A stretch of 44,089 bases of DNA, taken from positions 1 through 44,089 of the IMG/VR virus record IMGVR_UViG_3300019458_000055; one strand, given 5' to 3'. Made by a program: the position numbers and the translations under genes. Of the stretch, positions 1 through 44,089 are shown piece by piece. The notes under the pieces are model-generated. The model was given only the letters and a program-made list of their open reading frames with translations. It did no database searches and was not told where the DNA came from. Within the stretch, counting starts at the first letter, position 1; the number at the start of each line of letters is the position of its first letter. The stretch comes from a virus.

Positions 1-28
1 CCCTGACCGTTCGCGTGTTGGTCGGTGG

Positions 29-102
29 GGGGCTACCTCTGGCGAGGCGACCGGGGCTTGGAATCTCGGGTCGGTGGGGTTCGATCCCCCCTAGCTCCAC
101 CG
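29..102 (+). ncRNA. tmRNA tRNA-like-domain-like or atypical tRNA element
   Basis: Seen: bases 29-35 (GGGGCTA) pair with 92-98 (TAGCTCC) as a 7-bp acceptor stem, followed by ACCG. The third pair is G31-T96, which equals the G3:U70 alanine identity pair. A T arm with loop TTCGATC (80-86) sits on a stem 75-79/87-91, with one mismatch at its base. A 5-bp stem 52-56/64-68 closes a 7-base loop (57-63) that would present TGG as anticodon. Bases 36-51 do not form a normal D arm but resemble the D-loop analogue of tmRNA (CTCTGG then CGAC). Known: bacterial tmRNA starts GGGGCU and ends AGCUCCACCA, with G3:U70. Inference: a mini tRNA-like RNA with tmRNA-type ends and no mRNA domain. It could instead be an odd tRNA-Pro(UGG), an ssrA remnant, or an attachment core. 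Confidence 0.45.
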
Positions 103-43887: not shown

Positions 43888-44089
43888 ATGTACCAGGCGC
43901 CAGAGCATGACGCACAATCAGCTTCGGAAGTCGATAGAGAACTGCGTCGTGAATTTGTCCGGGCAGTTTCAGGCAGAGTCGCTCCGCCGCCGAGGACCAA
44001 ACTGCGAGAGGCGTATCTTGATGGATTGCATGTCGTCCGCGGTCTCCAAGAAAACAGCCAGCTCGACAAAGAGTCCGCCGAGCGCCTTA
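43888..44089 (+). CDS. Partial ORF running off the end
   Basis: 67 codons to the window end with no stop: MYQAPEHDAQSASEVDRELR then a basic helical part (REFVRAVSGRVAPPPRTKLREAYLDGLHVVRGLQENS). Upstream a TAA at 43861 closes the frame. If the molecule is circular the frame stays open through bases 1-122 and stops at 123-125, passing over the tRNA-like element. Function unknown. Confidence 0.5.
   Translation, partial: MYQAPEHDAQSASEVDRELRREFVRAVSGRVAPPPRTKLREAYLDGLHVVRGLQENSQLDKESAERL

Follow-up and report, generated by a model that had tools for sequence, protein, structure and literature searches.

A tRNA-Ala-derived alanine-acceptor element with a non-tRNA core near one end of a viral record, and its possible decoy function

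The window analysed here is the whole IMG/VR virus record IMGVR_UViG_3300019458_000055 (G000; 44,089 bases), and a tRNA-like element at its positions 29-101 is confirmed. The element carries the acceptor and T-arm half of a tRNA, the G3:U70 pair, A73 and an exact 3' match to tRNA-Ala. Our leading explanation, to which we give somewhat less than even confidence, is that it represents an alanine-acceptor RNA derived from tRNA-Ala, with a replaced core and a predicted decoy-like function. It would have kept the tRNA-Ala acceptor stem and T arm, with the D/anticodon half swapped for a short, different core.

The whole element is 73 nt long and is laid out as GGGGCTA, a 40-base core and GGGGTTCGATCCCCCCTAGCTCCACC. 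The 5' strand of the acceptor stem, GGGGCTA (29-35, +), pairs at 7/7 positions with the 3' strand TAGCTCC (92-98), which is followed by A73 (base 99) and CC (100-101), all read directly on the + strand. The alanine identity element that a sequence-only reading had reported in a tRNA-like RNA is indeed present, with G3 at base 31 and the G3:U70 pair formed by G31:T96 inside the 7/7 stem. Since base 102 is G, the element stops at 101 without encoding the final A of CCA. The T arm, TGGGG-TTCGATC-CCCCC (75-91, +; read directly and with local covariance models), has a stem paired at 4/5 positions, in which the outermost T75:C91 is a mismatch. Between the two halves there is neither an mRNA domain nor a pseudoknot, in agreement with the same reading, but its estimate of about 20 bases between them has to be corrected, for the non-tRNA core covers about 40 bases (36-74) and the inner hairpin loop 7-8 bases. 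In the MFE fold the core forms a possible hairpin in the D-arm place, CCTC-TGGC-GAGG (36-47, +), and a possible H2-like or anticodon-like hairpin, GACC.GGG/CTC.GGTC, around the loop CTTGGAAT (49-72, +), for which there is a second register, CCGGGG/TCTCGG enclosing CTTGGAA.

The combination of these parts is well above chance. On both strands of the 44 kb, 29-101 is the sole place where a T arm is accompanied, at 40-84 nt, by an acceptor stem paired 7/7. TAGCTCC found a 7/7 partner by chance no more than 3 nt from the normal tRNA spacing in 0.2% of trials, and the chance of an exact GGGGCTA inside the 31-nt range is 0.07%. Two local covariance models were built for this analysis, R1 for tag-less tmRNAs and R2 for tRNA-Ala, and 29-101 ranked first in the window with each of them (R2: 32.5 bits, E 3.7e-7; R1: 26.7 bits, E 1.7e-4), the next-best matches reaching 14.4 bits (R2) and 12.8 bits (R1). 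A chance likeness with no tRNA ancestry would suit the unremarkable core, yet it is refuted for the 3' half by the 26-base tRNA-Ala identity described below together with an E of 3.7e-7 in 44 kb, and we consider it extremely improbable.

With the same two models, ordinary tRNA-Ala scored 33-38 bits (R1) and 96-98 bits (R2). Tag-less tmRNAs scored 45-83 bits overall with R1 (45-62 for held-out ones), and those in the R1 training set gave 74-83 bits with R1 and 23-37 bits with R2 (nine compared). Judged against both classes, the signal of the element is confined to the acceptor/T-arm half and its core belongs to neither class, and this is what chiefly restricts any statement about function. The runs of ARAGORN and of the Rfam tmRNA and tRNA models that had been proposed as checks gave no significant match: ARAGORN in default mode reported nothing at the element, Rfam nothing at gathering cut-offs and the Rfam tRNA model nothing at E<=10, and the Rfam tmRNA model (RF00023) gave 11.2 bits against a gathering threshold of 47. 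The RF00023 model gives an ordinary tRNA-Ala 32.6 bits, so a weak tmRNA score is expected of any alanine acceptor.

The ends of the element come from tRNA-Ala. GGGGCTA at 29-35 matches the acceptor strand in Acidobacteriota tRNA-Ala(GGC) base for base, and exact-match searches showed that the 26-base block at 76-101 (+) is identical to the 3' end of this tRNA; this 26-mer occurs in 9/199 Acidobacteriota genomes searched. The 24-mer 78-101 was found at 8 loci in the genome contigs collection, all in Acidobacteriota MAGs and all at the 3' end of a tRNA-Ala(GGC), and no exact copy of it was found in the viral contigs collection. The ssrA genes of seven of the same Acidobacteriota genomes agree with 76-101 at only 19/26 positions and start with GGGGGCG, not GGGGCTA. 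Because the agreement is 26/26 with tRNA-Ala and 19/26 with ssrA, the ends are tRNA-Ala ends, and the earlier interpretation of them as the two halves of a tmRNA does not hold; nor does the comparison with host ssrA favour it, with Acidobacteriota taken as the inferred host. The sequence identity only suggests that the phage host is an acidobacterium. A tmRNA origin was rejected on this end identity and on the higher score of tRNA-Ala than of the element with the tmRNA model.

Compared with Acidobacteriota tRNA-Ala(GGC) (L002-L009), the acceptor strands, the T loop and the 3' 26 bases of the element are identical, while it has no D arm and no GGC anticodon arm, and its core is unalignable. G3:U70, A73 and the T arm of a tRNA-Ala are thus in place, whereas a D arm with T8/A14/G18G19 and an NGC anticodon are missing; base 8 is C and the sole possible anticodon is UGG.

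A further explanation is a shortened tmRNA descended from ssrA, tag-less and consisting of the TLD plus H2. Other phages do have RNAs of this kind, and the element has TGG...CGAC in its D region and a hairpin at the H2 position in the Rfam alignment. Its ends are those of tRNA-Ala, however, its 26.7 bits with R1 lie below tRNA-Ala and further below the clear tag-less tmRNAs, and the GGAC linker is not present, so that we regard this origin as very doubtful. The D-loop signature of tag-less tmRNAs, GG..TTCGAC, is absent, the element having TGGCGAGGCGAC, which is two bases longer; the RAC linker before the T stem is absent too, with GGTCGG instead of GGACG, and the H2 position between D loop and T arm is occupied by two competing hairpins, no better than in shuffles.

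The folding of the core is unremarkable. Shuffled cores were at least as stable in 58% of cases, and with a z of -0.24 for 28-102, fold energy was discarded as proof of structure. Two such hairpins arise in 15.5% of shuffled cores, so the 36-47 hairpin is not significant alone. The cloverleaf is lost in the fold predicted for 1-180, and no promoter or terminator was recognised for the element.

The second register of the 49-72 hairpin bears on another explanation, an atypical decoding tRNA in which an alanine acceptor is joined to a proline-reading UGG (loop CUUGGAA) and would place alanine at CCA codons. In mitochondrial mode ARAGORN reads 29-101 as "D-loop mtRNA-Pro(tgg)" with a 6-bp anticodon stem, a call made at the same place in 1/1000 shuffled cores, and G3:U70 occurs together with a normal cloverleaf in two phage tRNA-Pro(UGG) (L241, 2211-2283, -; L227, 1629-1706, +), the UGG anticodon and G3:U70 both being imposed by the search pattern. 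The element lacks a D arm and T8, however, the alternative MFE hairpin is far more stable than the anticodon register (-34.3 vs -23.4 kcal/mol), spurious mitochondrial-mode calls are also made on some tag-less tmRNAs, and CCA codon use is normal (11.5 per 1000). This explanation appears improbable to us, and a code change in which CCA is read as alanine was set aside on the normal overall usage. Besides, L164 (2372-2442, -), L135 (7726-7798, -) and L121 carry phage tRNA-Ala whose D arms are very short or odd; ARAGORN misses them in default mode and finds them in mitochondrial mode.

The record has a G+C content of about 60-64%, and its + strand carries all recognised genes, including RecT, MT-A70, a replication initiator, terminase, a P22-like portal and an M15-type endolysin. 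No SmpB gene was found in the window. The element starts 28 bases from one record end; no end repeats of the record were found, and the ORF at 43888-44089, open at the other end, would on a circular record read through 1-125, across the element. Downstream of the element and ahead of the first gene is a hairpin (147-177, +) with a fully paired 14-bp stem, a 3-base loop and no T run. The palindromic repeats TTAGTTAGTTAACTAACC at 241-270, immediately before ORF 271-471, are likely an operator, and the product of this ORF has a weak likeness to NikA/TacA DNA-binding proteins. No phage relatives were found in the viral contigs collection through ORF 473-991 and the terminase, the phages collection gave terminases of only about 22-31% identity, and a regular-expression scan of the available DNA of RecT relatives (<=57% identical) gave no such element. 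The searches turned up no counterpart of the element at full length.

The strongest rival is a dead tRNA-Ala remnant, either an old attachment-site core (the 3' 26 bases) or a transduced gene that in a single event lost its middle or had it exchanged. An exact 26-base block at a tRNA 3' end resembles attP cores, shuffled cores fold just as well, and the T75:C91 mismatch would mean a host-like 3' strand with a changed 5' strand. A rearrangement is also suggested by an exact 11-base direct repeat, GGTCGGTGGGG, at 20-30 (+) and 69-79, the second copy of which enters the T arm; it is possibly the trace of such an event. An attachment core, however, leaves GGGGCTA at the right spacing unexplained (chance 0.07-0.2%), none of the integrase matches listed lies near the tRNA-Ala gene in eight Acidobacteriota genomes, and no tyrosine integrase or resolvase was found in the record, which may be incomplete, neither PF00589 nor PF00239 being matched at E<=10 in six frames. 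A working attachment site is accordingly disfavoured despite the 26-base identity, and the suggestion that the element is the ssrA copy of an attachment site fails on its identity; any attachment target would be tRNA-Ala. With a core that is unremarkable, a broken T-stem pair and relatives lacking, the remnant stands nearly level with the decoy, and we hold it to be a serious possibility.

For the decoy reading, the mechanism can be outlined from general tRNA biology. RNase P and the CCA-adding enzyme would finish the RNA ends. G3:U70 and A73 are enough for AlaRS to recognise an acceptor stem. An RNA made from the element would therefore probably be charged by AlaRS, and EF-Tu could bind it. 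Because the normal decoding half is missing, an ordinary tRNA role is not expected and a competitor role is proposed, in which the alanylated decoy might compete with tmRNA for SmpB, AlaRS, EF-Tu or stalled ribosomes. Slow neutral decay is disfavoured, since the ends are exact (7 + 26 bases) and the 40-base core is unalignable; decay would not be expected to spare only the parts recognised by enzymes, which we count for the decoy reading. Other phage alanine-acceptor RNAs without a cloverleaf core, including that of L261, support it as well. Against it stand the core without statistical support, the T75:C91 break, the fold lost in 1-180 and the want of a whole relative; scores like those of a generic acceptor/T-arm with both models, below the tag-less tmRNAs; and the tmRNA D-loop and GGAC signatures, absent or altered, with no promoter or terminator recognised. 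If functional, a phage alanine-acceptor RNA without the decoding half would offer a natural test of the requirements of AlaRS, EF-Tu and SmpB, and might act against ribosome rescue.

Two pattern scans of the viral contigs, one with TTGGA imposed and one without, and with G3:U70, CTCC and TTC imposed, yielded at least about 28 distinct tag-less tmRNAs of about 77-90 nt, nearly all missed by ARAGORN. They are carried by L277, L328, L284, L312, L310, L288, L301, L319, L269, L270, L306 and others, and further by L303, L296, L297, L243, L230, L314, L275, L300, L267 and L299. They combine the tmRNA signature in the D loop (TTCGAC, TTAGAC or a variant of these) with an H2 helix, the RAC linker, a T arm and CCA. 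No space is left in which a tag or pseudoknots could fit, and the H2 sequences are completely different between members. Among 53 non-cloverleaf candidates H2 has a mean of 5.28 bp at its fixed place, compared with 4.02 when the halves are swapped (maximum 4.59 in 200 trials). In the alignment A1 (21 sequences), 92.6% of H2 cells pair, all four pairs change on both sides, and the whole-structure covariation score is 0.569, whereas slid controls reach no more than 0.118; as the A1 sequences were picked by eye, the swap test is the safer of the two. No SmpB gene was found in the 39 carrier records examined, and a tyrosine integrase is present in 6/43 carrier records. In L284 (18.7 kb of G063), L328 (9.0 kb of G061) and also L261 (6.4 kb of G086), the gene for the terminase large subunit follows the RNA on the same strand, 0.6-2.8 kb downstream.

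This larger set of shortened rescue RNAs in other viruses is little described. It matters more than the element itself, and makes a block of trans-translation by phage RNA decoys directly testable. Like the element, its members (L328, L284, L310, L270, L312 and L277 were compared) have a G3:U70 acceptor, a T arm and a short core and are missed by ARAGORN; unlike it, they show the tmRNA D-loop signature, a covarying H2 and the RAC linker, and score 45-83 bits rather than 26.7.

Closer in layout are the RNAs of L255, L257, L258 and L261, in which, as in the element, the acceptor leads directly into a short hairpin, the linker is missing, and a second hairpin holding TTGGA (imposed by the search) ends 0-1 base before the T stem. 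They differ in their stems and mostly in their acceptor sequences, L258 having the same GGGGCTA, and score 41 bits (L255 and L261, which fit the tag-less tmRNAs better), 33 (L257) and 28 (L258) with R1. GGGGCTTGGAATC, 13 core bases, is common to L261 and the element, and among the matches listed L261 is the sole record with GGGCTTGGAA before such a 3' end, a hint from the sequence that the two cores may be related. TTGGA was rejected as a family motif, for it was imposed by the search pattern and shows no conservation in the set obtained when it was dropped from the pattern.

Cultured examples of the short form were sought as well and dismissed, the matches examined being full tmRNAs or ordinary tRNAs; the full tmRNAs, mostly permuted, are those of Tunturi_4, Rb1, PHB04, DLP_6, S-CRM01 and cr50_1, with the one of Bongo in standard form. 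In Tunturiibacter phage Tunturi_4 (L389; PP885687.1, about 43.4-44.3 kb) an unannotated permuted tmRNA gene adjoins one that encodes a release factor with an RF-1 domain, two possible ribosome-rescue genes side by side. Synechococcus phage S-CRM01 (L382, about 88.3-88.6 kb) carries an apparently unannotated permuted tmRNA gene found by ARAGORN.

It is conceivable, though we think it rather unlikely, that phages have repeatedly cut down or rebuilt alanine-acceptor RNAs to the tRNA-like half against host ribosome rescue and that the element is a form made from tRNA-Ala, not from ssrA, and convergent with the DS6A-type decoy. With the same reserve, that reading would place it beside the tag-less tmRNAs of viral contigs as a broad family.

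Among known systems, full tmRNAs were reported in about 2.3% of phage genomes in one survey (PMC9004378). The 2025 tmRNA database holds 97,179 sequences, 79 of them from phage, and lists nine "standard, no CDS" forms, one named example of these being from a phage (PMC11915505). The tmRNA without an mRNA domain in mitochondria (Jacob et al. 2004, cited in PMC11915505) resembles the element in having a tRNA-like domain and no tag, and differs from it in being organellar, in occurring with SmpB and in having usually permuted genes (PMC11915505). Another close counterpart is the ssrA of mycobacteriophage DS6A, described as "TLD only" (PMC4131195). A molecule similar to the DS6A TLD strongly inhibits tmRNA whether or not it can be charged, perhaps by SmpB titration (PMC4131195, citing Mao et al. 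2009). Of the roles offered earlier, the blocking of trans-translation thereby gains an experimental precedent in a TLD-only phage RNA of the DS6A type (PMC4131195), which may apply to the element by analogy. Compared by description, the element has tRNA-Ala ends and no GGAC linker, unlike DS6A ssrA, and shares with it a phage-encoded RNA of about tRNA size, with an alanine-type tRNA-like domain and neither tag frame nor pseudoknots (PMC4131195; PMC11915505).
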